Shown: positions 992 through 61,020 of the stretch, piece by piece
How the letters are laid out: each line of letters opens with the position of its first letter
How positions within the stretch are numbered: the first letter of the stretch is position 1
Assembly (NCBI GenBank): GCA_947044365.1
Contig: OX345636.1
Coordinates: 18,764,548 to 18,828,547, forward strand
Source of the DNA: Petrosia ficiformis
Lineage: Eukaryota > Porifera > Demospongiae > Haplosclerida > Petrosiidae
Direction of reading: 5' to 3'
DNA: 64,000 nt
Program-made: the position numbers and the translations under genes
The notes under the pieces: generated by a model
What the model saw: only the letters and a program-made list of their open reading frames with translations
Database searches by the model: none
Told to the model about the DNA's origin: nothing

Positions 992-3434
992 GTGTTGTGG
1001 ACTAGGAAAAGGGGTTACTTGGGATGAAAATTAAATTTTGAGATTATGATTTCATAATGACTATTGATGTCTTAAGTTGCTAAATTTGAAATAGCAGCTC
1101 TGTAGTCCAACGTATCACTGAGTTACAAAAATTTTTATTACACCATATCAAGTAGCCATTTCTTTTTTTAGAAATTGGTGGTCATTGTGGAGTCTATGAA
1201 TCACTTTGCAGGTGGTCTTTATATATATAGCCCATGCATATAAGTTATCTTATACAGGTTTACATGTCTTTCATTTTTTACTTCAGTTATAGTTATGTCA
1301 TATTTATTAATTATAGTTATGTGAATAGCAGGTTTAATTTCATCTTCAATGTTCAATCTCTTTAAGTAACTCAGGACAGGTAATCTCTCCTTTACGTGTC
1401 TTTGAGTGTCCTGGATTTCTACAGTGAGAACAAAGACGCCTATATTTCTTTGTGGAGGGGCCTGCACTATCAGATTTTTGGTTAATGGGACGTTTTCGAG
1501 ACGGTTCTGGCCAGGTGATATCTTGGTATTTTTCATCACAAAAAACTCTTATTTCATCATAAAGGTACTGCTTCCTTTGTTCGGACAGGCCTGATGGAGA
1601 AAGTGTATGTGGAAGTGCAGTTGGATCAATGTTAACATCTTGCTTCAAAATATCAATCTTCATAGGATACTCTTGGGAAAAACAAAAATGATGGTATGAA
1701 GTTATTTAAGGTATATGCTTATAATATTTGAAAAGAAATTCAGTCCAGTCATAATAATTAGATGGTGGTTCAGACCCAATTACGAATGCCCTATTCTGTC
1801 CACCTTGTGTTGACTCCTCAACTAATTTGGATATTTCAGCAAGAGAGGACACATCAGTACGCCTATAACTTCTTTTGATAAGGCCGAAAAACCTGTCAGG
1901 ACTAAATTTGGTATGTCCAGGTAACATGAAGCTCAATTCACATGATTTGTAACGACCTGTTGCAACACGCCAAGCAAGGTAGGAGGTCATGATATTATTT
2001 TTGTTTTGGCCAATGCAATTGTCTGCCTGAAGACAAATGTTGTCCTCTCCATGGGAATAATACTCTAAATAGTAGTGAACCATGCTTACGATACTGTTCG
2101 CACCTTTACCACATGACTGAGCTTCATCAATTAAAAAATTTAGTTGTGTGCTATTACCTTCATCACATACTCCAAGCCACACTTACATGGAGTTTTGAAG
2201 TAAAGAGGACCTGGGTTTTGAGGACGACTAGGATAATGGATCTGCTGAGCGTGATCAAAGCTATAGCTGAGAGTGACCGATTTATTACTTGGTTGCTGAT
2301 CTATAGCAGACCTACTAGCAGCTACTTTGTCTTTGTAATAGTATCTTTGTCTCTTTGCAAGCTCAAGGTGTTCTTGAGCCATTAGTAGCCTTTTTGTTTT
2401 CTCATCTTCACTTTGGTTGGCAGACTTCATAATCAATGTTGAATTATTCTGGCATGTGAAACAGAGATCATCAGCAGGTGGCATAGATCTAATGAAGGGT
2501 ACCACTTCAGACCATAACCTGCAAAATTCTCGATAGCCAAAGGTTCGTACTGGTGTGTCACTAGTTTGCTGAAGTTCTTCTGATGATTTCACATAGTCTC
2601 TATGAACTGAAGCTTTAGACACATTTGTCGGGAGAAGCATTATGTTATAGTCATAGAACTTGGGCATTCTACCTGGAAGAGGGAGTGCGTTAGCCTCAGC
2701 AAAATTCTTGATAAAAGTAACAGCTCTTTCTTTATTATGAACTGTAGAAGCATTCCAAGGAAGTTTACGAACATTATCATGTGTTCGAACAGTAACTCCA
2801 TTTAATTGGTATTGCTTCATCAGATTATGAAAACGCTTCTTTCCGACTCCATGGAGAAACATAAATGTCTTAAAACAAATGTTATGAGTTTTGTAATGGA
2901 AATTAGTATACTCTTTCACTCTAATACTTTTTTGACTTTCAGTCCTATGTCCAGCAAGTCTACCAGAAAAATGATGGGCATTAATCTGGCTTAATATTAC
3001 TAAATCCAATTGTTCATTCTTAAGCTCAGCCATAGACATTCTTGCTTCTTCATATTTCTTTTGATCAAAATAGCCACTACAAGGCGCTCCCCCTTTTTTA
3101 GAGCAGCCACAAGCATTATCAACAAAGTTTTTTTTACAGCTTCCACTTCTTCAACATCCACTTCACGAAGTTCCACTCGAGAAATCGCTCCATCATCCGC
3201 CGCCTCTTCTGTGCTCTCACTATCACTAACTGAAGTATCACTCATATTAGTCTCTCTCTCTTCTAATGTGTTACCAAAAAATTCTTCCTCTAGTAGAGAA
3301 AATTCAGTTTCTAAAGTAGAGCCAGTTCCAGGCTCCATTTTTAAGCAAGAGATTCTAAATAACGCACATCTCGAACTTTGACCTTAATTATCTCAATACT
3401 ACTTAATTACCCTTTTCCCAGTCCACTACACATA
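992..3434 (-). mobile_element. TIR transposon of an uncharacterised family, copy 1
   Basis: The left end reads TTGTGGACTAGGAAAAGGGG and the right end is its reverse complement (CCCTTTTCCCAGTCCACTAC), giving ~30-bp terminal inverted repeats. About 10 bp of the inner right TIR is missing compared with copy 2 (33031-35603). The two copies are near-identical over about 2.4 kb, so both are fairly recent. The cargo is one transposase-like gene on the minus strand. Outside the ends, a 14-bp word (TATGCCTTTTTGTA) is present on both sides (about 972 and 3439), but it does not abut the ends, so I do not call it a target-site duplication. Confidence 0.75.
1346..3338 (-). pseudogene. Transposase-like protein (DUF7869-like), frameshifted, copy 1
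   Basis: Read right to left, the coding pieces are 3338-3000 (acidic N-terminus, then a Cys-rich stretch), 3039-2140, 2182-1706 and 1663-1346. The middle piece has a GVGKKRFHNL motif. The third has LQADNCIGQNKNN and GHTKFSPDRFFG, whose Asp residues could be catalytic; this matches my recollection of DUF7869-type proteins. The last piece carries a zinc knuckle (CSHCRNPGHSKTRKGEITCP). An extra A in a poly-A run near 3130 shifts the N-terminus. A second shift lies at the KCGL codons (about 2170), and about 38 bp near 1663 are deleted relative to copy 2. Transposase function is inferred from the TIR setting, not from a proven catalytic site. Confidence 0.6.
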
Positions 3435-21770: not shown

Positions 21771-24689
21771 CTAACCGGGGCTATTCCGTTTCCTATACAA
21801 ACTCAATTGACAAAGTTGAAAGAGACACGGAATAGCCCCGCCTACCTCATCTTACTAAACGCTTTATAACTCCAAAACTGTGTGAGATATAGGTCTCAGA
21901 CCTCCACCAATGGATCCGGGATAGATTTAGCAAAATACAGATACCAAAAAAGCAGAGCTTGTGAGCGTAGCGCGCTAAAAAAAACGCGCTAAAAAAAATC
22001 ATTTCATTAGCAGAAGCAATAAAATTACTCATATTGCACATGTTTTGTTCTCTCTAAATTCTCTCCCAGTGATCTCTGTTTCTTTCTAATTTCCTCCAGG
22101 CAAGTAGTATAGTAATTTCATTAATGTTATAATATAATATGAAATAAATATATTAATTTTTTTAACAATAAATATTATTTATTTATATAATACTTTATTA
22201 CTAATAAATAGAATGGTATGTCACTACAAAAAAAAGGAAAAGACTATGAAATGGTCTGAAGAAGATATGGAGAAAGCTATAGATTATGCACGCACACACA
22301 AAAACATCACAGCAGCAGCAAAACAATTTAAAATACCCGTAAGTACGTTGAAGGACCATATCCGTGGAAAATCATGCAAAGGTAAGAAACCAGGCCATCC
22401 CACTGTTCTTACTATGCAACAAGAGCAAGAGATTGTTGATACTTGTACAGTCTTTGCTGAATGGGACTTTGGTCTAGGAAGAAGGGAGATTGAATCGATC
22501 ATTCAAAATTACTTGAAATCAACAAAACAACCACACCCATTTCACAACAGTGTACCAGGAGAAGGGTGGTGGAGTGGGTTTATGAGACGACATAATGGTC
22601 TATGCAAACGAAAACCACAGCATTTACAAATGGTGAGAGCTAAGGCGACCACAAAACCAGTAATAGACCACTGGTTTAACAACTGCTTAAAGCAATCATT
22701 AGAAGATCTAGATTTATTTAACAAACCAGAGCAGATTTTCAATGTCAATGAATCTGGTTTTCCATTAGGTTGGACACCTAAAACCATATTGGCAAAACGT
22801 GGTCAAAAATCTCCTCAGGCTTTGCTTGCTGGATCAGGACGAGAAAATATCACTGTCCAGATGTGTGTATCTGCTACTGGTAAATTACTTCCACCATACA
22901 TTGTGTATAAAGGTGAACGTCTTATGTCTGACTGTACATATGGTGGCCCCCTTGCAACACGATTTGCTGTGTCACACAATGGCTGGATGACCGAGGAAAC
23001 CTTCATTGACTGGATGCGCTCTCTATTCATTCCTTCTCTTCCAGATGAACGTCCAATTCTTCTTATCTTAGATGGTCATAGTTCCCATGTTTCATATGAA
23101 ATTCGTGTACTAGCCATAGAAAATCAAATTCATCTTCTTAAACTTCCTCCACATACCACACATGCTCTTCAACCACTTGATGTTGGTGTACTTAACCACC
23201 TGAAAGGTATTTGGCAAAAAATTGTTGGAGATTTTACTCGTCGAGAAAGGCGAATTATTACAAAACGAGATTTTCCATCTTTGTTAGATGGAGTATGGAA
23301 ACAATACAAACCACAGTGGGCTAAAGGTGGATTTTGTAAGTGTGGTATTGTTCCATTCAAGCCAGAAAGTGTTCCCGATTCTCTGTTTTCATACTCAGAC
23401 CCATTTTCCACTTCTCAAGTATCTGACAAGTCTCCTACAGCTTCAGATGAAAACAGTTTAGTAGCAGTTTTGCAATCTGAAACCGAGAATGATGAAATAA
23501 CATCAGGTGTACAAATAGTGCAAATAGTACCATCAACAACCAATTTATCTACTCCTACACCACCATCACTACAATCACCTTTCAACAACCAATTTATCTA
23601 CTCCTACACCACCATCACTACAATCACCTTTGCCAATATCAACACATCTGTCTTCTCCACCAACACCGCCATCTTTACAATCACTACAATCATCTCCACC
23701 ACCAGCATCAACAGCAATACCATCAACTCTATCATCATCTACAACACAATTCTCTAGACCACCATCTTTACCAATGTCAACACCAATACTATCACCAACA
23801 ACACAATCTTCTCCACCACCACCAGTATCAACATCAATAACATCATCTTCTAACTCACTTCGAGACTTTTTTGTAGACCTGCTGAAGTCAAAAACCCCTA
23901 CAAGGAAAAGGTTGACAGGTCTTGGGGAAAGTTTGACTTCAAATGAAGCTATTGAAAGAGTGAGAATGGCTCAAGAAGAAAAGGAACAGAAAGAAAGAGA
24001 AAAAATAGAAAGAGCACAAGAACGTAAAAGGAAGAAGGAAGAGAAAGAGAAAGAAAAACAGGAAAAAACAGAAAAATAAACAGAAAGTGACAGGTAAATC
24101 CAACAAAAAAAAACCCGAGACCAAATAAATCGCCCACCCCACCCAGCACTAGCAATACTAAAACGTGTCCTACCTGTGGTGCACCGTACGATGAGGACGA
24201 TGAACTCTGGCTTCAATGTGAGCAGTGCGATGCATGGAGTCATATGAATTGTGCTGGATATTCAGGATGGTCTGAAGAAGATTTAGCTTCAGAAGTTTAT
24301 GTGTGTGAAATTTGCACTCTATAATAACAAATAGTTGTTTTCCATGATTGATTAAACTTGTAGCAGGACAATAAAACCAGTGTGAATCAATTAGCTACTA
24401 ATCCGTAAATGTCCGTTAATTGTCCAAATATTCCGTAAACGTCTCTGTATATTACCTGTTGGAATAGCCCCGGTGCAACGGAAATAGCCCCGGTAACAGG
24501 ACTTCACAAAATTTGAAACAATTTCGAAATAGTTTATGGTAGTCTTGTAGTAAAGTTTTTACCATCATACGCAAAATTGAACGTAAATTTCAAAAATGTG
24601 AGTTACAAATTATTATTTTGTTCGTACAAGAAGTTATGCGCTTATGAATATTCAGAACGACCAAATGCAACGGAATAGCCCCGGTTGAC
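21770..24689 (+). mobile_element. Tigger/pogo transposon, complete ends
   Basis: Left end GCTAACCGGGGCTATTCCGT and right end ACGGAATAGCCCCGGTTGAC form 21-bp inverted repeats with two mismatches, flanked on both sides by TA, the target site of Tc1/mariner/pogo elements. Sub-terminal copies of the GGAATAGCCCC word lie at 21829-21839 and twice near 24465-24495, so the ends carry repeated binding-site-like motifs. It carries one transposase gene on the plus strand. Confidence 0.9.
22213..24324 (+). pseudogene. Tigger transposase: HTH_psq, CENP-B HTH, DDE_1, coiled coil, PHD
   Basis: The first frame (22213-23757) has a psq HTH at residues ~14-55 (WSEEDMEKAIDYARTHKNIT), a CENP-B-type HTH (GEGWWSGFMRRHNGLCKRKP) and the DDE_1 core. 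The first Asp block reads FNVNESGFPLGW, where pogo enzymes have an Asp before Glu, so the catalytic Asp is Asn. The second block is ILLILDGHSSH and the third is PPHTTHALQPLDVGV. A 49-bp tandem duplication (23534-23582 and 23583-23631) shifts the frame to 23630-24079, which encodes Pro/Ser-rich and Glu/Lys coiled-coil parts. After further shifts, 24163-24324 encodes a PHD finger (CPTCG...CEQC..WSHMNC...CEIC). Confidence 0.9.
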
Positions 24690-32436: not shown

Positions 32437-35400
32437 TTAATGTACATGTACATCTACTCTCTTCTGTCTATCCTCGCTCGTTTCATCCTCGTCGTCCTCG
32501 GTTGTTTCTATTGAACAGAATTAGAACTATCTATACACATACTGACACTTGAAAAATGATTTGCATGGTAATTATGGGTGATAGTGCACTGTTATTTATA
32601 TCATACAATCAGTGCTTACCTGCTTGTCTCCTCTGTTTATGATGTAATCACATCAAAAAGAGAACAATAAATTATGTAACAACGAAGTATATACATATGG
32701 TAATAGGTACATATGAATGACCATATGAAGTGTAAAGTAACTGCTAACATAATAAAATGTTTATCATACCATTGCTGACTGTTTATCATCCAGTTTTAAC
32801 TGCATGCAATTAAAAATGAAACTAGACAGACTAAATAAAATAGCTGTGAATAAAAAAAAAAGAGTGAATTACATGCACACAGAATGAATTTATATTTACT
32901 CACATTAATTTCCGTCAGCAATCTATTCTTTTCCTACAATACATATAAAGAAACAGTAAACCCTTTTTTCCGATTAGCTAACGGCTGTTAACTTATGACT
33001 ATTTTGTTGCAATTCTGGAATAAAAATATATGTGTTGTGGACTAGGAAAAGGGGTCACTTGGGATGGAAATTAAATTTTGAGATTATGATTTCATAATGA
33101 CTATTGATGTCTTAAGTTGCTAAATTTGAAATAGCAGCTCTGTAGTCCAACGTATCACTGAGTTACAAACATTTTTATTACACCATATCAAGTAGCCATT
33201 TCTTTTTTAGAAATGGGTGGTCATTGTGGTGTCTATGAATCACTTTGCAGGTGGTCTTTATATAGCCCATTAGTTGATATAACCAATTATCTTATACAGG
33301 TTTACACGTCTTTCATTTTTTACTTCAGTTATAGTTATGTAATAGTTATTTTACCAAAACAGTGTTTACTTTATAGTTATGTCATATTTATTATTTATAG
33401 TTATTGTGAATAGCAGGTTTAATGTCATCTTCAATCTTCAATCTCTTTAAGTAACTCAGGACAGGTAATCTCTCCTTTACGTGTCTTTGAGTGTCCTGGA
33501 TTTCTACAGTGGGAACAAAGACGCCTATATTTCTTTGTAGAGGGGCCTGCACTGTCAGATTTTTGGTTAATGGGACGTTTTCGAGACGGTTCTGTGCAGG
33601 TGATATCTTGGTATTTTTCATCACAAAAAACTCTTATTTCATCATAAAGGTACTGCTTCCTTTGTTCGGACAGGCCTGATGGAGAAAGTGTATGTGGAAG
33701 TGCAGTTGGATCAATGTTAACATCTTGCTTCCAAAATATCAATCTTCATTTCTTCCATGTCAGCAAACTGTCGTAATGCTACCATTCCAGGATAATCTTG
33801 GGGAAAAACAAAAATGATGGTATGAAGTTATTTGAGGTATATGCTTATAATATTTGAAAAGAAATTCAGTCCAGTCATAATAATAGAAATGCTTAGATGG
33901 TGGTTCAGACCCAATTACGAATGCCCTATTCTGTCCACCTTGTGTTAACTCCTCAACTAATTTGGATATTTCAGCAAGAGAGGACACATCAGTATGCCTA
34001 TAACTTCTGTTGACTCCTCATCTATTTTGGATATTTCAGCAAGAGAGGACACATCAGTATGCCTATAACTTCTTTTGATAAGGCTGAGACTAAATTTGGT
34101 ATGTCCAGGTAACATGAAGCTCAATTCACATGATTTGTTACGGCCTGTTGCAACACGCCAAGCAAGGTAGGAAGTCATGATATTATTTTTGTTTTGACCA
34201 ATGCAATTGTCTGCCTGAAGACAAATGTTGTCCTCTCCATGGGAATAATACTCTAAATAGTAGTGAACCATGCTTACGATACTGTTTGCACCTTTACCAC
34301 ATGACTGAGCTTCATCAATTAAAAAATTTAGTTGTGTGCTATTACCTTCATCACATACTCCAAGCCACACTTACGTGGAGTTTTGAAGTAAAGAGGACCT
34401 GGGTTTTGAGGACGACTAGGATAATGGATCTGCTGAGCGTGATCAAAGCTATAGCTGAGAGTGACCGATTTATTACTTGGTTGCTGATCTATAGCAGACT
34501 TACTAGCAGCTACTTTGTCTTTGTAATAGTATCTTTGTCTCTTTGCAAGCTCAAGGTGTTCTTGAGCCATTAGTAGCCTTTTTGTTTTCTCATCTTCACT
34601 TAGGTTGGCGGACTTCATAATCAATGTTGAATTATTCTGGCATGTGAAACAGAGATCATCAGCAGGTGGCATAGATCTAATGAAGGGTACCACTTCAGAC
34701 CATAACCTGCAAAATTCTCGATAGCCAAAGGTTCGTACTGGCGTGTCACTAGTTTGCTGAAGTTCTTCTGACGATTTCACATAGTCTCTATGAACTGAAG
34801 CTTTAGACACATTTGTGGGGAGAAGCATTATGTTATAGTCATAGAACTTGGGCATTCTACCTGGAAGAGGGAGTGTGTTAGCCTCAGCAAAATTCTTGAT
34901 AAAAGTAACAGCTCTTTCTTTATCATGAATCGTAGAAGCATTCCAAGGAAGTTTACGAACATTAACTCCATTTAATTGGTAGTGCTTCATCAGATTATGA
35001 AAATGCTTCTTTCCGACTCCATGGAGAAACATAAATGTCTTAAGACAAATGTTATGAGTTTTGTAATGGAAATTAGTATACTCTTTCACTCTAATACTTT
35101 TTTGACTTTCAGTCCTATGTCCAGCAAGTCTACCAGAAAAATGATGGGCATTAATCTGGCTTAATATTACTAAATCCAATTGGTCATTCTCAAGCTCAGC
35201 AATAGACATTCTTGCTTCTTCATATTCCTTTTTGATCAAAATAGCCACTACAAGGCGCTCCCCTTTTTTTAGAGCAGCCACAAGCATTATCAACAAAGTT
35301 TTTTACAGCTTCCAGTTCTTCAACATCTACTTCACGAAGTTCCATTCGAGAAATCACTCCATCATCCTCTTCTGTGCTCTCACTATCACTAACTGAAGTA

Positions 35401-53180: not shown

Positions 53181-54250
53181 ATGGCTCAGAAACGTGTGTA
53201 CAGTGTAACCGAAGTTTTGGAATTTTTTAGCGGTGAAAAAGACTTTCCTCAGTTTCCTGACTATTCTGAGGATGTTCTTGAGCAGCCTGCAGCAGATTCT
53301 TCAAGTTCAGAAATAGATATTCCTGATGACAACGAAGTGTTTGAGTCTGACAGTGAATGAAATGGAACGAAGTCCTAAAAGGAAGAGGTTAGATGACAGG
53401 ATAGATGATAATGAGAAGAACAATGATTGTGGAAACAGTAGTAATAGTGATGGGAGTGAAGATAGTGATGAAAGTGATGACAGTGATGAAAGTGACATGA
53501 GCAACAGAGGTCGTGAAAACAGTAGTGATGTGAGCAACAATGATGGTGGAAACAGTAGTTAAAGTGATGACAGCGATGAAAGTAACAGAGGTCGTGGACA
53601 AAGAAGAAGTCGTAGACAAATGAGAAGATGTGGACGAACGAGAGGTCGTGGACAAATGAGAGCTGTTGGACAAAGAGGAGATACTCAGTGCTCTAGAAGT
53701 GGTGGCAGAGGAAGTCGTAACCTCACAGGTTGTGGAGGTAAAAGGTTGCGAAGTATCACAGCAGTCTTACCCAGTAATGCTGTAAATATAACTGTATCAG
53801 ATAATGAGTTCTGTTCTGCTTTTACTGCTGATGACTTTTGTCCACTTTGTGATCCAGGACCACACCTTCCATGTGATGCAGTAATAGATCCGCTAGCATT
53901 GTTTGAGCTTTATTTTGATGATTGAAAGAATTATAGAGAGCACACTAGCATATGCTTACCATAACAAGGATGACCTAATGGGTTCCTACTGTAAATTTAT
54001 AAACGGACAGTTTACAAAAGCCGAGTTGTTTTGCTACTTTGGGGCTTTGATTCTTTTGGGTATTCATGGAGTTCGCAATCATAGATATGCTTGGAGTATG
54101 AAGAAAGCCCAGCATTTGGTTCGCCTCAGTGAGCTACTTACATATGAGAGGTATGAAATAATTGGTAAATTCCTTCATCTAGTAATACCAGATGAAGAAG
54201 CAGGTTTGTCTGGAAATAAATTGAACAAGATTTTGCCCATTCACAATCAA
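53181..54250 (+). pseudogene. piggyBac transposase, N-terminal half
   Basis: The start at 53181 (MAQKRVYSVTEVLEFFSGEK) leads to an acidic region ending ESDSE at a stop (53358). Later frames carry an Asp/Ser-rich stretch (53326-53562), an Arg/Gly-rich stretch (53620-53925) and then the transposase core start (53903-54250: FCYFGALILLGIHGVRNHRY, WSMKKAQHLVRLSELLTYER, KLNKILPIH). At least three frameshifts or stops are present, independent of the insertion. The chain stops at 54250, where the palindrome of the insert begins. Confidence 0.8.
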
Positions 54251-54346
54251 CAGGACCTTAATCAATGCATCAACACTGGTCTAATCAACATTACCTCCGG
54301 AGGTAATGTTGATTAGACCAGTGTTGATGCATTGATTAAGGTCCTG
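54251..54346. repeat. 96-bp perfect terminal palindrome, left
   Basis: Starts CAGGACCTTAATCAATGCAT, has its centre at ACCTCC|GGAGGT (54298/54299) and ends ATGCATTGATTAAGGTCCTG. All 48 base pairs match. It can fold into a hairpin, as expected for a self-priming viral telomere. Confidence 0.98.
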
Positions 54347-54550
54347 TGTTTATACAGCATATTCACATCAATGTATATATATATATTCATAGTAATAATG
54401 TTATAATTGTGATTAACAATGTGATTTAAACAGTGATTAAACACTTAAATGTATGTGATTAAGAATGTGATTAACAATGTGATTAAGCATTAAATAAGTA
54501 TGCGATTAACAATGTGATTTAGAATGTGATTAAGCATTTAATTAGTTGTG
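54347..54550. repeat. Inner TIR, left, with repeated TGTGATTAA words
   Basis: Contains TGTGATTAA or near variants (TGTGATTTA, GCGATTAAC) about eight times between 54417 and 54535, spaced by 10-25 bp. The mirror copies lie at 59575-59705. They are candidates for Rep-binding iterons; binding is not shown. Confidence 0.8.
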
Positions 54551-54604
54551 ACCTTTAGGTAATTGACCTTTAATAATTGACCTTTAGGTTAAAAAAAAAG
54601 CTTA

Positions 54605-54743
54605 ATCAAATTCTTGTTCACTTTCTTATATATTATATATTACTATATATATACTCTATATATTACTTATATACTCTATGTATTACTTATATACTATATA
54701 TATTACTATATATATATATATTACATATATATTATATTATTAC

Positions 54744-54774
<31 letters not shown>

Positions 54775-54870
54775 AATAGTAATAATATTAATAATAGTAA
54801 TAATATAATATATATGTAATATATATATAGTATATATATATAGTATATATAAGTAATAAATTAGAATAAG
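54605..54870. repeat. TA/TTA-rich inverted repeat inside the virus-like element
   Basis: TTACATATATATTATATTAT on the left mirrors ATAATATATATGTAATATAT on the right across a TTATTATT/AATAATAGT centre near 54770. It lies between the TIR and the 267-aa ORF and is a possible promoter-side hairpin. ORFs in it are artefacts. Confidence 0.75.
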
Positions 54871-54932
54871 AAATGTGATTTAAAAAGTGATTAAGGTTTG
54901 TTTTTTTTTTGTTATGATTATCATATAACAAA

Positions 54933-55736
54933 ATGTCTACCAAAAAAGGTCTTACTACTAAAGCACTTGCTAAAGCTACCAAACGTCTATTAGATGATAT
55001 ACCTGGTGGTACAACTAAGAAGAGGAAGAGTGATGAAAACGTTTTGTCTAAAAAGGCTACTACTAGCTTAATCAATTTACACGAGCAGGTTTTGAAAGAT
55101 AATAAGGCTTTGAGTAGGAAGATTAATAGTCTACAGAAAGTAATTGATGATCAGCAAATCAAAATTACTACTATGGGTACTGACAAGAGTGTAAGTGATC
55201 CAATATCAACGAAAGAAACTTCACCTGAAGAAGAAGAAGTTGATGAATCTCCTGTTAATATTCCTAAATCTTATTCATTATTCAGTGGAATGGAAGGTAA
55301 TGGAACAATAGAATATGAGTCTGCTATGTTGGAACCTGAAGATGAAGGTGTGTTTGAATCAATTGATGAATTTGTTGGTAAAAACAAAATTAAAATACAG
55401 AGTGAAGCTATGCAATCAACATACACAATAGATTTGTGTTTCTTTGGGGATAAACCACAGCCTTTAAATAAACAGAAATTTCGTAATTATATGGAGAAGT
55501 TTGAGGTGAATGATTATCAAATACCAGATTTACCAGTTACTGCTAAAAGTTTAGATGGTGAAAGTGTTCTCACTGTACCAATGCTTACTCATTTCAAAGT
55601 AACAAATACAATTGAACACAAAGCCAATTTCCAAATGCATAACATTGATAGTTTAGTTAATTTTGGGTTTCATGAAAGTTTGTCTACTTTAAACGTGTTA
55701 TTCAACACAAATAATTTTGGCATCACAACCTATTGA
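54933..55736 (+). CDS. 267-aa unrecognised protein of the virus-like element
   Basis: An intact frame starting ATG-TCT-ACC about 380 bp inside the left TIR. The N-terminus is basic (KKGLTTKALAKATKRLL; KKRKSDE could be a nuclear signal). A likely coiled coil spans residues ~48-75 (HEQVLKDNKALSRKINSLQK), an acidic run lies around residue 95 (PEEEEVDE), and a mixed, beta-like C-terminal half follows. I do not recognise it. It could be structural or non-structural. The frame being intact while Rep is broken is notable. Confidence 0.7.
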   Translation: MSTKKGLTTKALAKATKRLLDDIPGGTTKKRKSDENVLSKKATTSLINLHEQVLKDNKALSRKINSLQKVIDDQQIKITTMGTDKSVSDPISTKETSPEEEEVDESPVNIPKSYSLFSGMEGNGTIEYESAMLEPEDEGVFESIDEFVGKNKIKIQSEAMQSTYTIDLCFFGDKPQPLNKQKFRNYMEKFEVNDYQIPDLPVTAKSLDGESVLTVPMLTHFKVTNTIEHKANFQMHNIDSLVNFGFHESLSTLNVLFNTNNFGITTY

Positions 55737-55755
55737 GTTAGGAGAGTTAGCCATT

Positions 55756-56064
55756 TTACTTTCTTGGGCTTTTTGTGAAACAGTGGTGTATTTTACCGCT
55801 GATTTTCCCTTCCTTTTGTTTGATAAAATCTTCATACTTGATTTGAAGGACATTATTAATGCCTATCGGATAAGTCTGGTATAAGATGATTGTAAATTGA
55901 TTGTTTCCTCTACGAAAGCGTAATTTAAGGTTGTCTTTCACACAGACGTTTGTGATTTCCTCTATTACACAGTTAGAGAAACGAAATTGACTTGTTACTT
56001 CAACTTTCAAATCGTCACAGTTACCTTCAAACGTGCAAAAACTTTGCATAATTGAAAAATGCAA
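55756..56064 (-). CDS. 102-aa minus-strand ORF of the virus-like element
   Basis: An open frame between the 267-aa ORF and Rep, on the opposite strand. It has alternating hydrophobic/polar stretches (LKVEVTSQFRFSNCVIEEIT, RFRRGNNQFTIILYQTYP) that suggest beta strands. No homolog recalled. Coding status is uncertain but composition is protein-like. Confidence 0.45.
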   Translation of the reverse strand: MHFSIMQSFCTFEGNCDDLKVEVTSQFRFSNCVIEEITNVCVKDNLKLRFRRGNNQFTIILYQTYPIGINNVLQIKYEDFIKQKEGKISGKIHHCFTKSPRK

Positions 56065-56152
56065 GCAATTTTCTTTATATAATCAATAGTGGGTGTGGTT
56101 AATTTTATTATTATATGAGGAGTTCATTTAAAATTTTATTTCATTTTTAGCT

Positions 56153-57894
56153 ATGGCTAAGCGTATTCGTGATGATGATGATGGTCAGCAAGCTAGTTCA
56201 AATAAAGTTAGCAGACTTGATCTAGAAGAAGATGATGATTTAAGTGATCATGACATTGAGATTGATCATTTACCAATTTTAACAGAGAGACAGAGGGAGT
56301 TTGCTGACCAATTTCTAAATAATGATTTTGTTGAGCAAACATTACCAGAAGACTATGTTGAGCCTCACGAAAAGCTGAAATGGCTTGAAAGTGATGAAGA
56401 TTTAGAGTATGAAGAAGAACAAGAAGGAGAAGAAGTTGAAGAAGAAGAAGACCAAGAAGAAGACCAAGAAGAAGTACAAAATGAAGAAGACAACAACTTT
56501 GATGGTGAGAGTACACAAGCTTTACTTGAAATTGTGTATGGGGAACATATAATTGACCCTTTCGCAGAATATAATATTAAACCTAATTCGAAGTTCCCTG
56601 ATTGGATAAACGCTTTGATAAAAGCGAGGCATTGGGATACTAACCTCATTAAAGAAGAATTCTACAAAGGGTATGAGCTTGAAAAGCATACTGCTTTCAG
56701 CGATAAATGGCCAGGTTTGAAGAAGTATACTATTATTATAGATAATGGCAGTACCAGGAAAAGATCTTTTGAGCAAAGCTCAATGCTCATTAAGCCAATT
56801 ACAGTTGATCAAATATATCAATTTTTTAATCAACTCATAGGTTTGGTTGATTTTGTAGTTTGTAGGTGCGACAAAACAGAGAGAGGGTGTGTTGAGTATC
56901 AACACTTTCACTGCATTTTAGTATCTTCCAAAGAATACCAAGCTCATCGTTTTAGGAGTATTTTTAATAAATATTTCGGTTGTGAAGACGAATACATTAA
57001 GAAAAATGTCAGGAAAGTTTTTTACAGAAAGATGAATTTTGCAGTAATTTGCGGTAATATGTCTCCTTGGTGTGGCATGACTAATTATATAGCTGTTGGG
57101 GCTTTGGCTAGGCCTGATTATGCTTCAGGGTACAAGGATGAGCTTAATCCTATATGCAAAAAGGATATCATGTCTTACAAAAAAAACAGTGATTCATTAT
57201 ACAGTTGTATATTTTATGAGCATCCAGATTAGTACATAGCATTGAAACACAGGCTAACAAAAAATCATATTAACTGTTTTCAACAGAGAACAGTCATACA
57301 CTCAAAATCAACTTCACCTTTCATGAAGATTTACTCCTTTTTTTCAAAATATGGCTGTGTAGATGCAAGTACTGTGCATATTAAATTAACTAAAAAAGAT
57401 TACGAACAATTTGCTTCAGGTGGTATGGCAAAACAATGGAACAGGGCTTTAGAGAGATGGGTACATGACAAAATACAACAGTGGGACTGGAAAAACTTTC
57501 ACAATACACTTGCACCAAAGCAAAATAATGAATATTCTAATTCAGCAGATTCTTATATAGTCTTCTCAAATTCCAAGAATTCTCAGATGATGATATTAGG
57601 TATTTCTGTTCAGCCTTCTACGAAATCATTAACAAAACTTCAGGAAAGAAAAACTGCATATATATATGGGGTGCAAGTTCAAGTGGGAAAACTCTCTTAT
57701 TGAATGTGGTGGAAAGATTGCTTGTTAGGTTTGGCTCATACACAGAGCAAAGTGCATTTAGCGAAGCTTCTTACAGGACTTGCTTTCTTTTCGAAGATGT
57801 ATCTACCATACCTATTCCTTCCTTGTCTACTATTACCCAATTACTGGTACTTTTGAATAATTTTTTTTTTTTGTTTTGTAGAATGTATGAATAA
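56153..57894 (+). pseudogene. Rep-like replication protein: HUH-like endonuclease plus SF3 helicase, broken
   Basis: Starts at ATG 56153. It has an Asp/Glu-rich region (residues ~85-122), then an HUH-like motif (QHFHCILV, His at residues ~251 and 253) with a downstream Tyr/Lys-rich block. An in-frame TAG lies at 57230-57232 and the same frame continues to about 57560. A frame change between about 57560 and 57580 leads to the P-loop (WGASSSGKTLL, 57667-57699) and a Walker B-like CFLFEDVS (57781-57804). The frame ends at 57894 before a Walker C or Arg finger can be seen. Parvoviral and bidnaviral NS1 have this domain order. Three lesions mean no functional Rep from this copy. Confidence 0.7.
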
Positions 57895-57899
57895 ACTAA

Positions 57900-58300
57900 C
57901 AAGATTAATTAGTGTAAGGCAACTAATGTTAAGATATATAGAACAGAAAATACATAATTTAGCCAAAAAATTATAATTTTTTTTTTTTTTGCAGTTATAA
58001 CAATGAGGAACTTATTTTTGTTTATATATATTATTAAATATTGTTTAGGATAATTTTTTTTTCATTACAGGAAATGAAGTATACACTTTTTTTTAAATCT
58101 TACATTGTGTTTACAAACATATTGTAATGATGTATAGGTTTATTTTTCTTTATATTAATTATTATTTTTTAATTAATACAAACCTAAAGACACTAAAATA
58201 GTGAAATTACCAAAATTAATATGATAACCAAAAGAAAAGCCTAACAAAACAGCAATTAAAGAAATTCCTATTAATACCAATGTCAAAAGAAAAATAACTA
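57900..58300. other. No gene recognised in the virus-like element
   Basis: Very AT-rich with poly-T runs. The 3' end of the SF3 helicase should lie here but is not recognisable. It separates the convergent Rep-like and 427-aa genes, so polyadenylation signals for both would be expected here. Confidence 0.5.
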
Positions 58301-58304
58301 CTAG

Positions 58305-59588
58305 TCAATTTTTAGTGTCAAGAAGAACATAAGCTCCATCAACGTCAGGTACAACATCATCACTTCCTCCACCACTGATAGTTGGAAAATAAACCCTAAG
58401 CCTAGGTTTATCATCTACTTTCAAGACTTCAATATCTATTGCTTCTTGCCTATCAGTGGTATATGTTGTAATAGAATCAGCTTGTTGAATATACGTAGCA
58501 TAATCAATAGCATTAATTGTAGGCCATCCTGCTTTTCTCCATTTATTAGACCTAGTTTGATCTGTAAAATGCTGAGCTTTAGGATCTTGTGGTTTATCTT
58601 GAGAAATTGGAATTATACTAAATACATTCTTTGGGTCATTATCAATTACACCTCTTTGAACGCAAACAATATACCTATAGTTACCAACTGGCTCATCTAT
58701 ATTAAGCTCTTGTTTTCGCCAATCTCCACCAAGTTCCTTTTCTTCTTTATGTAATTGGAAATCAAGGAATTCCCTAATTGAACCTCTAAGCCTAAATACT
58801 TCAGTTTGTGTCATCTTTCCATCCTTTTCACACTTAGACTTATAAAATTCAACTCCAGCTTTAATTGTTGTCTCTGAATCTAAATCAATAGGTGCACCAT
58901 CTGTACCTTCAACTTCGCTCCCGAATACTTGTTTGGAATAAATTGGCCATAATTGCTCTTGTAATCCAAAGATTAGGTTAGAATACTCAGCATTATAAGT
59001 GTAAGGAAAAGATTCCATCCATGTGTTATGGTATACATTTCTACTATTGAAAAACATTTCGAAAACTAGATCTTGTATATGTTGACATCCACTTTCTATT
59101 GCCAACTCTCTTAGTCGTCTAGGTATAGCCATATATGATAGTTTCATAAGAGTGCTAGTGTGTTTGTCTCCAAGTTGTCTTTCAAAAGGATCACCACTTA
59201 TTTCACGTACAGCTTTATCAAATACACACATCACAAACTCAGGCACAAAAGAAATGCCATATGTTTGTAAATATGCAAGGAAAACTGCAATATGAATAAC
59301 AGGAGTAAAGGTAGAAGTAAAATTACTCATGATTTCAACGAATGATCCTAGGTAATCGAACAACACTTGGAGAGTTGTATTTATTCCTGGTAGAGGTTCG
59401 ATTGGTACAGGTTCATCAGTAGATGATTGTTTCGAATAACTTCTAGCCAAACTAGCTGGTGGAAGTGATTGGGTTACTTCCATTGCTTCCCTTCTGCTCG
59501 TCTTTACAATTCTTGAAAATGAATATACTGAAATATACTGAAATATACTAAAGGTCAATACATCACAACTAATTAAATGCTTAATCAC
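58305..59588 (-). CDS. 427-aa minus-strand protein, possible capsid
   Basis: The longest intact frame of the element. The first 35 codons overlap the TIR, so the Met at about 59483 (MEVTQSLPPASLARSYSKQ) is a more likely start, giving ~392 residues. It has a hydrophobic segment (VIHIAVFLAYLQTYGISFVP), a central Trp/Tyr/Phe-rich part and a Gly-Gly-Gly loop near the C-terminus (SGGGSDDVVPDVDG). In ambisense densovirus-like genomes the structural gene opposes Rep, so capsid is the natural guess. I see no phospholipase A2 motif and no recognisable jelly-roll signature, so this is inference only. Confidence 0.6.
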   Translation of the reverse strand: MIKHLISCDVLTFSIFQYISVYSFSRIVKTSRREAMEVTQSLPPASLARSYSKQSSTDEPVPIEPLPGINTTLQVLFDYLGSFVEIMSNFTSTFTPVIHIAVFLAYLQTYGISFVPEFVMCVFDKAVREISGDPFERQLGDKHTSTLMKLSYMAIPRRLRELAIESGCQHIQDLVFEMFFNSRNVYHNTWMESFPYTYNAEYSNLIFGLQEQLWPIYSKQVFGSEVEGTDGAPIDLDSETTIKAGVEFYKSKCEKDGKMTQTEVFRLRGSIREFLDFQLHKEEKELGGDWRKQELNIDEPVGNYRYIVCVQRGVIDNDPKNVFSIIPISQDKPQDPKAQHFTDQTRSNKWRKAGWPTINAIDYATYIQQADSITTYTTDRQEAIDIEVLKVDDKPRLRVYFPTISGGGSDDVVPDVDGAYVLLDTKN

Positions 59589-59775
59589 ATTCTAAATCAC
59601 ATTGTTAATCACATACTTATTTAATGCTTAATCACATTGTTAATCACATTCTTAATCACATACATTTAAGTGTTTAATCACTGTTTAAATCACATTGTTA
59701 ATCACAATTATAAATATATTACATTATTACTATGAATATATATATATACATTGATGTGAATATGCTGTATAAACA
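59564..59775. repeat. Inner TIR, right
   Basis: Reverse complement of 54347-54550, with TTAATCACA words repeated. It has about 8 extra bases (ATATATT) near 59711 relative to the left arm and a T for C at one iteron. Confidence 0.9.
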
Positions 59776-59871
59776 CAGGACCTTAATCAATGCATCAACA
59801 CTGGTCTAATCAACATTACCTCCGGAGGTAATATTGATTAGACCAGTGTTGATGCATTGATTAAGGTCCTG
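59776..59871. repeat. 96-bp terminal palindrome, right (one mismatch)
   Basis: Same sequence as 54251-54346 except one base (GGTAATATTG for GGTAATGTTG), so 47 of 48 pairs match. Confidence 0.97.
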
Positions 59872-61018
59872 TAGCCATCTCGTAGTTTGAGTATTGATGA
59901 ACGCATGGTGAACAGTAAAGCAAGAACACACTTCCGGCAGAACATACGTAATAAGCCAACCAAATGGGGCTTCAAATATTGGGTGTTGGCAGATGTCACA
60001 GGATATACAATTGATTTTGATTTATATCTTGGAAAAGCCACTCAAATCTCAGGTAATGGGCTTGGATTTGATGTAGTCATGAAGCTGATCTAGCCATATT
60101 GTCATCAGGGGTATGAAGTGTACTTTGATAACTTTTATACCAGTCCAGTCCTTTTGGAAGAACTTCTTCGTAATGAAGTTGTTGCTACTGGGACATTGAA
60201 CGTTACCAGAAAAGGAGTCCGAAAAGATGTCGACAAACTTTCTCGAGGTTCTGGTTATTATTTTTGATCACCTAATTCCAAAGTAACCTACTGTTCATGG
60301 CATGACACTAAAACAGTTACATTAGTGTCAACAGCTTATCCTGCTCATTCAAAGAACACTGTATCCAGGCGAGTGAAAGACCCACTTACGAATATATCAA
60401 CAACTATGAATGTACCATGCCCAGTTATGCTTGAGAAATATAATAAGTCAATGGAGGGGTGGATAAGAGCGATCAACTCATCAGTTATCACAAGCTTTTG
60501 AGAAAAATGGTCACGGCCTTTTTCCACCTCATCGATGTAGCAATTGTAAATGCCCATATTCTTTACAACTGGTTTCAGTTACAGAATGCTGAGAAACCCA
60601 TCACAGAGAATCAGTTCCGTGATTTGTTGGTCCTCAAAATCGTCTCTACTTATGGCAAACAAAGATGTCTCATCTCTAGTAACTATCGAAAACTTCCTTC
60701 GTTCAAAATACATCATGGCAGCAAGATTTATCCCTTAGAGGAAAAATCTATATGTGTGTATTGTAAGCTACACAATTCCAGAAGTGCAACACAGCGTAAA
60801 TGTCCTGACTGTCCTTTGAATCCAGCACTCTGTCAAACTGTCGAAAAAGATTGTCATTCAGAATGGCATAGCGATGCCTTCTCAATGATACGAAAACTTT
60901 GGTATGAAAAACACCTAAAACCAGTAACTGAAACAGAAAAACCACCTTCATCTGGACGTGGCTGCCCGAAAGGAAGCATCAATCAACGTAAACGTCGTGG
61001 AAACTATCGCACTAAATA
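59872..61018 (+). pseudogene. piggyBac transposase, C-terminal half
   Basis: Immediately after the insert, CCA-TCT-CGT reads PSRSLSIDERMVNSKARTH (first catalytic Asp), then PTKWGFKYWVLADVTGYTID. After a stop near 60092 comes YEVYFDNFYTSPVLLEELL (second Asp). After another stop and a frameshift near 60455 come VDKSDQLISYHKLLRKM (third Asp region) and a Cys/His-rich C-terminus (CVYCKLHNSRSATQRKCPDC, then CHSEWH). All the usual catalytic Asp positions can be seen, but the frame is broken at least three times. Confidence 0.85.
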
Positions 61019-61020
61019 AA

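Follow-up and report, generated by a model that had tools for sequence, protein, structure and literature searches.

The DNA considered here is a window of 64,000 nucleotides from the sponge Petrosia ficiformis (assembly GCA_947044365.1, contig OX345636.1, positions 18,764,548 to 18,828,547 of the forward strand). Within it, positions 54250-59872 hold an insert with long terminal inverted repeats (TIRs), whose outer parts are palindromes, and with genes on both strands, among them one for a Rep/NS1-like protein. The insert interrupts a piggyBac-like transposase gene. It is very probably an endogenous viral element, that is, what an internal deletion has left of a linear DNA virus with hairpin ends and a Rep of the parvovirus type, which break repair in the host joined to the host's DNA. 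The features are listed below in window coordinates; copy B is a longer relative of the insert found elsewhere in the assembly, ORF stands for open reading frame, and VP?, g2, ORF2, Zn-like and P427 are working labels for genes.

53903-54249, plus strand: piggyBac-like transposase gene, 5' part (PF13843; uninterrupted in 2 of 2 paralogues)
54250-54347, no strand: left terminal palindrome, 98 nt, perfect
54250-54551, no strand: left TIR, its inner part with GTGATTAA-type repeats, GTTTATACA first
54933-55736, plus strand: VP? (capsid candidate), 5' part, 69% identical to a 343-codon piece of copy B; a frame change, then the internal deletion
about 55755-55768, no strand: internal deletion junction (tblastn map; copy B has about 3.4 kb more here)
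55756-56064, minus strand: remnant of the Zn-like ORF and ORF2, cut by the deletion
56153-57232, plus strand: Rep/NS1-like gene, 5' part, containing an acidic region and the HxH motif (13 proteins matched)
57233-57703, plus strand: Rep/NS1-like gene, middle piece behind an in-frame stop
57541-57894, plus strand: Rep/NS1-like gene, helicase piece in a different frame, with the P-loop but not the C-terminal part (PF01057, E 1.4e-6)
58305-59588, minus strand: P427, intact ORF (5 proteins matched, 70-84% identity)
59563-59872, no strand: right TIR, compared with the left one below
59775-59872, no strand: right terminal palindrome, 98 nt, one broken pair
59873-60172, plus strand: piggyBac-like gene, continuation (empty site in 2 of 2 paralogues)

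Terminal structure of the insert

Both ends of the insert are preserved, as the initial annotation had proposed, but they lie at 54250 and 59872 and not at 54251 and 59871, and the outer palindromes, present at both ends, are 98 nt long instead of 96. The left palindrome is perfect, while in the right one a single pair of 49 is broken. Folded as single-stranded DNA, the left palindrome is predicted to form a simple hairpin of -55.6 kcal/mol (z -21.7, equalled by 0 of 200 shuffles); hairpin-capable terminal palindromes are a trait of the Parvoviridae. The TIRs that enclose the palindromes measure about 302 and 310 nt, in agreement with the roughly 300 bp first annotated, and differ from each other by 2 mismatches and one 8-nt indel. 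Their inner parts contain the repeat GTGATTAA, which occurs 6 times in 213 nt on the left and 7 times in 221 nt on the right, against once in the 4993 nt of the element's middle and once in the remaining 58377 nt of the window. The inner TIR starts, just inside the palindrome, with GTTTATACA, and this motif is kept at all 7 palindromic ends examined.

The Rep-like gene

The gene initially annotated as Rep-like does have HFH at the HUH position and a P-loop piece that matches Parvo_NS1, but in the window copy it is broken into three frame pieces by an in-frame stop and a frame change, and its C-terminal part is lost. The 359-aa piece itself gives no significant Pfam match. It does match 13 proteins, three of which carry PF01057, the best at E 1.2e-15. 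The helicase piece of the window copy has both a P-loop and a PF01057 (Parvo_NS1) match at E 1.4e-6. A superfamily 3 (SF3) helicase of the parvoviral type is found, then, in the relatives as well as in the window piece. When a longer relative of Rep was compared with PDB chains, Rep40/Rep68 came first (1.2e-9), ahead of Replication protein E1 at 2.8e-6 and of Non-structural protein 1 at 8.2e-6; we take these to be proteins of adeno-associated virus, papillomavirus and parvovirus, respectively. The helicase is matched by viral NS1, E1 and Rep proteins and not just by cellular or transposon helicases. HxH is present in 10 of 12 alignment rows, the other two (P0007 and P0011) leaving the frame at or before the motif, and a tyrosine-containing motif lies downstream of it. 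An HUH fold in Rep is likely, as a prediction.

Related copies and the internal deletion

The 191.2 Mb assembly was searched with the palindrome, Rep and the 267-aa protein (the VP? product of the window), and the resulting copy numbers are lower bounds. At least six related copies exist besides the window copy A, namely B (23.93 Mb), C (24.15), D (30.30), E (54.85), F (21.94) and G (24.34). Rep was found in A, B, C, F and G, and the 267-aa family in A, B, D and E; the palindromes in the assembly lie in copies that hold one or the other of these genes, rather than in a known transposon with the same TIRs. Among the fetched loci P427 is present in A, B, C and G, and its C-terminus also in F, where it lies right at the limit of the fetched sequence. 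Protein identity between copies is 53-92%. All seven places lie on contig C1 (18.8-54.9 Mb), which is a third of the assembly, with a chance of about 4e-4 if they are independent, and four of the seven are clustered at 21.9-24.4 Mb. The search was not restricted to this contig, since a retroelement query gave other contigs too. Copy C (C1:24148134-24153268) has a Rep with stops and frame changes and an open P427; a Tc1/mariner-like ORF, recognised by eye, adjoins its Rep. In copy B a second, slightly altered palindrome with its repeat lies just inside one end (C1:23929122-23929223), resembling a tandem terminal duplication.

Copy B spans about 8.4 kb, duplicated terminal stretch included, and lacks parts of Rep and P427. 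Its order is TIR-VP?(+)-g2(+)-ORF2/Zn(-)-Rep(+)-P427(-)-TIR. The order Zn-like ORF, Rep, P427 is common to copies A, B, C and F, and Rep followed by P427 is seen also in G; the ambisense layout first noted in the window copy holds for copy B as well. In the window copy, no more than 13 nt separate codon 276 of the 343-codon piece from codon 102 of the Zn-like ORF, at a junction where copy B holds about 3.4 kb (by tblastn map and coordinate subtraction). Lost in the deletion are the remainder of the 267-aa gene, one additional gene and the greater part of two genes that overlap. The 5.6-kb insert, with this internal loss and a broken Rep, is not the genome that the initial annotation took it to be. 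Its ORFs nevertheless exceed chance: the longest stop-free runs in the two halves of the element are 289 and 417 codons, where 1000 Markov sequences per half gave no run above 155 and 186, respectively. As copy B lacks gene parts and has a duplicated terminal stretch, the size of the full virus is only an estimate, perhaps 8.4-9 kb, on one segment or possibly two.

Other genes of the element

In copy B the VP? region opens with 343 codons of the 267-aa family; after a stop the same frame runs on for 180 codons, and these two pieces make up a gene of 523 codons with a single internal stop. A 117-codon ORF follows. The 267-aa family matched 7 proteins, and from size, position and elimination we would guess it to be a candidate capsid part. 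The g2 gene comprises ORFs of 118 and 285 codons in copy B; it has one match in the genome and is for this reason not a repeat family. On the minus strand of copy B, ORF2 (336 aa) overlaps a 150-aa Zn-like ORF with a Cys/His pattern. They share about 260 nt, read in different frames (locus L038, 155-1358), and both are open in copy C, where the overlapping ORFs are 76% identical over 159 residues and 64% over 157 to those of copy B. The window remnant is 54% identical over query residues 9-102 to the copy B Zn-like ORF, and 41% over 49 residues to ORF2 of copy C. The length of 427 aa for P427 assumes a GTG start. Four of its five homologues start within 13 residues of the methionine at residue 36 and the fifth slightly earlier, and this methionine is the likely start. 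The AlphaFold model of P427 is unusable, with a predicted local distance difference test score (pLDDT) of 37.

In the searches made, no gene except Rep has a known relative. P427 and the 267-aa family gave nothing convincing in Pfam, PHROGs or PDB sequences. No Pfam family for VP or phospholipase A2 (PLA2) was matched in the element's ORFs, and PDB sequence searches were without a convincing match. For PolB there was no match above cut-off in the Pfam scans of the ORFs covered; a sub-threshold DNA_pol_B_exo1 match (E 0.036) in ORF2 of copy C is absent from the longer ORF2 of copy B. The initial annotation had seen neither PLA2 nor PolB, and had found the 267-, 427- and 102-aa products to resemble nothing recognisable. 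Both statements hold within these scans (Pfam for all products, PHROGs and PDB for some), but the 267- and 102-aa products turn out to be truncated larger genes.

Divergence among the copies

Between the palindromes of copies A and D, 10 of 49 pairs differ, and all 10 are changed on both sides and complementary, with none one-sided, as hairpin copying would produce. Within the group of B, C and E the differences are few and mixed. In Rep the proportion of synonymous differences (pS) is 0.67-0.94 and that of nonsynonymous differences (pN) 0.04-0.23 (20 rows, from 10 copy pairs and two Rep pieces). Near-saturated pS with low pN points to long-acting selection on the protein, most simply in a replicating virus. 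The remaining genes depart less from the ordinary: with 6 pairs each, pS is 0.24-0.52 in P427, 0.21-0.71 in the 267-aa family and 0.44-0.77 in the Zn-like ORF. The values are uneven even for a single pair of copies: A versus G gives 0.24 in P427 and 0.71 in the Rep helicase piece, and A versus B shifts within P427 from 0.17-0.25 to 0.51-0.66. Judged from these sequence comparisons, the pattern suggests recombination between virus lineages as its best explanation.

Integration into host DNA

That the element is integrated in host DNA, as initially annotated, is seen directly. The left flank matches PF13843 (DDE_Tnp_1_7, E 4.6e-9), and both of the two paralogues found (95% and 89% identity in the left flank) are uninterrupted at the insertion point. 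Between 54249 and 59873, 29 bp of the target are absent, and both paralogues carry those 29 nt. An open frame at 60447-61019 is probably the 3' part of the piggyBac-like gene, judged by eye; it has no DDE match in the Pfam scan. In copy B the flanks share an exact 31-nt repeat, one base of which is perhaps the element's own, giving a target duplication of 30-31 bp, and both palindromes are trimmed. The viral end of copy C is exact at the palindrome and directly abuts retroelement DNA (gypsy-like by eye), which is 99.5% identical to two other retroelement copies over the first 187-234 nt; the retroelement surroundings are 88-100% identical over longer or other segments (matches of at least 200 nt).

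A DNA transposon would be expected to make a target-site duplication of constant length. Here a 29-bp deletion stands against a 30-31-bp duplication, at the two of seven places that can be judged on both sides, and Pfam scans of the ORFs in the element gave no transposase or integrase domain above cut-off. That the target fared differently, with the element's ends clean in one case and trimmed in the other, suggests that the host repaired staggered breaks, and at these two sites integration fits host end-joining rather than a transposase.

Nature of the element

The initial annotation suggested a virus-derived element with a parvovirus-like Rep and intact hairpin-type ends, and the HxH motif, the SF3 helicase and the hairpin-forming palindromes bear this out. 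On the best reading, the source virus belonged to a lineage not yet described, of linear, hairpin-ended viruses that resemble parvoviruses. We lean, by a little, towards a new lineage at the family level, with a genome of about 8.4-9 kb, at least six genes mostly without known relatives, repeated entry into the genome of one host species, and mutual recombination. In such a virus Rep would bind the GTGATTAA repeats of the inner TIR, and its HUH domain would nick beside the terminal palindrome, the invariant GTTTATACA just inside being the candidate site. The hairpin would then prime copying of the ends while the SF3 domain unwinds the strand, as in the rolling-hairpin replication of parvoviruses. 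The packaged genome would presumably be single-stranded, and break repair in the host would join viral DNA to the host genome.

Several observations weigh against this. The candidate tyrosine of Rep is without the lysine that usually follows four residues on. The model of the HxH region is weak, averaging pLDDT 46 with core blocks that reach 77, and has no PDB match at E <= 0.001; its 11 matches in a viral library at that threshold include two parvoviral NS proteins and one single-stranded DNA Rep, with TM scores of 0.24-0.33 and seven of them unnamed. PPV_E1_C scores almost as high as Parvo_NS1, and because of this the helicase indicates a class and does not single out the Parvoviridae. Several of the matched proteins are by eye from the same host species (P0014 is the copy C ORF), so the number of matched proteins is not a number of independent lineages. 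No relative was found in IMG/VR, where the Zn-like ORF, ORF2 and g2 lay outside the scans, and none of the searches recognised a capsid protein. The g2 gene is placed in the virus by copy B alone. Compensatory changes are not exclusive in all palindromes: C and E differ by 2 compensatory and 2 one-sided changes, and C and the left end of B by 1 and 1. The contrast in pS could possibly come from gene conversion between integrated copies or from unequal synonymous constraint.

Seven places in one genome, long TIRs and intact ends would also be expected of a host-resident mobile element, either an HUH-type or a TIR transposon, spreading within the genome. This seems very unlikely, given the unlike handling of the target at two sites (a 29-bp deletion, and a 30-31-bp duplication with trimmed ends), the lack of a transposase or integrase domain in the ORFs scanned, and the 53-92% protein identity with near-saturated synonymous sites in Rep, which indicate no recent burst. 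Nor is a composite of the Teratorn type (PMC10175614) a close parallel: there virus-like sequence occurs together with a piggyBac gene, whereas here virus-like DNA was inserted into a transposase gene with the loss of 29 bp, as the two uninterrupted paralogues show. A capsid-less linear hairpin replicon, that is, a selfish linear plasmid instead of a virus, would account for the finding that Rep alone is recognisable and that no capsid homologue was found. It is nonetheless unlikely, as there are five further genes by count, one of them the 523-codon gene of copy B, as Rep40/Rep68 and E1 are the nearest of the solved chains to the SF3 helicase, and as capsids are often unrecognisable by sequence.

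It is unlikely, too, that the source was an ordinary parvovirus from one of the known subfamilies, such as an ambisense densovirus, that has merely diverged; this is a narrower case of the viral origin preferred here and compatible with it. Junonia coenia densovirus (6,032 nt, inverted terminal repeats of 547 nt; PMC5978394) has an ambisense layout, hairpin repeats and an NS1-type Rep, and the element shares with the Parvoviridae, and the ambisense Densovirinae in particular, palindromes inside TIRs, a Rep with an HxH motif and an SF3 helicase, and genes on both strands. Genome size in the family is given as 3.6-6.2 kb (PMC10267136); the window copy has 5.6 kb but is deleted, and copy B has about 8.4 kb with its duplicated stretch. 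Unlike in parvoviruses, Rep is internal, between minus-strand genes, no Pfam match to a parvoviral VP or PLA2 was found, and the extra genes g2, ORF2, Zn-like and P427 are without relatives found. With the Bidnaviridae (Bombyx mori bidensovirus) the element has in common a parvoviral-type SF3 helicase, inverted terminal repeats and several extra genes. Bidnaviruses have neither the endonuclease domain nor hairpin termini, and they do encode PolB (PMC4061559), whereas the element has the HxH motif and hairpin-forming ends, and PolB is not above cut-off in those of its ORFs that were scanned; a second segment is possible. On account of these differences from both (size, gene content and internal Rep on one side, endonuclease, hairpins and PolB on the other) we call the viral element parvovirus-like and place it in neither family.

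Parvovirus-related sequences are known from other marine invertebrates. PMC6085071 lists four parvo-like contigs from starfish and one from an anemone, several of them judged endogenous, and none from the sampled sponge; two of these are near-complete NS1/VP1 genomes of 5.8 and 6.5 kb. Sponge viromes are reported to contain Parvoviridae- and Bidnaviridae-like reads (PMC6195793), and Bidnaviridae-like reads are reported in PMC7532657 too. A literature search of titles and abstract openings, with subscription journals mostly outside it, returned no description of an element of this kind.

Implications and other features of the window

Parvoviruses are limited to about 6 kb. If the interpretation is right, a larger hairpin-ended relative with mostly novel genes would mean that replication of the parvovirus type supports bigger, multi-gene genomes, and the lineage would be relevant to the gap that separates parvoviruses from bidnaviruses. 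The compensatory divergence of the palindromes, the empty site and the target duplication make the steps of end replication and integration directly testable.

Elsewhere in the window, an open frame of 539 codons at 22138-23757 resembles by eye a transposase of the pogo/jerky type, and positions 2140-3150 and 34328-35302, both on the minus strand, hold two open copies of one ORF family of unassigned kind, each of more than 300 codons.

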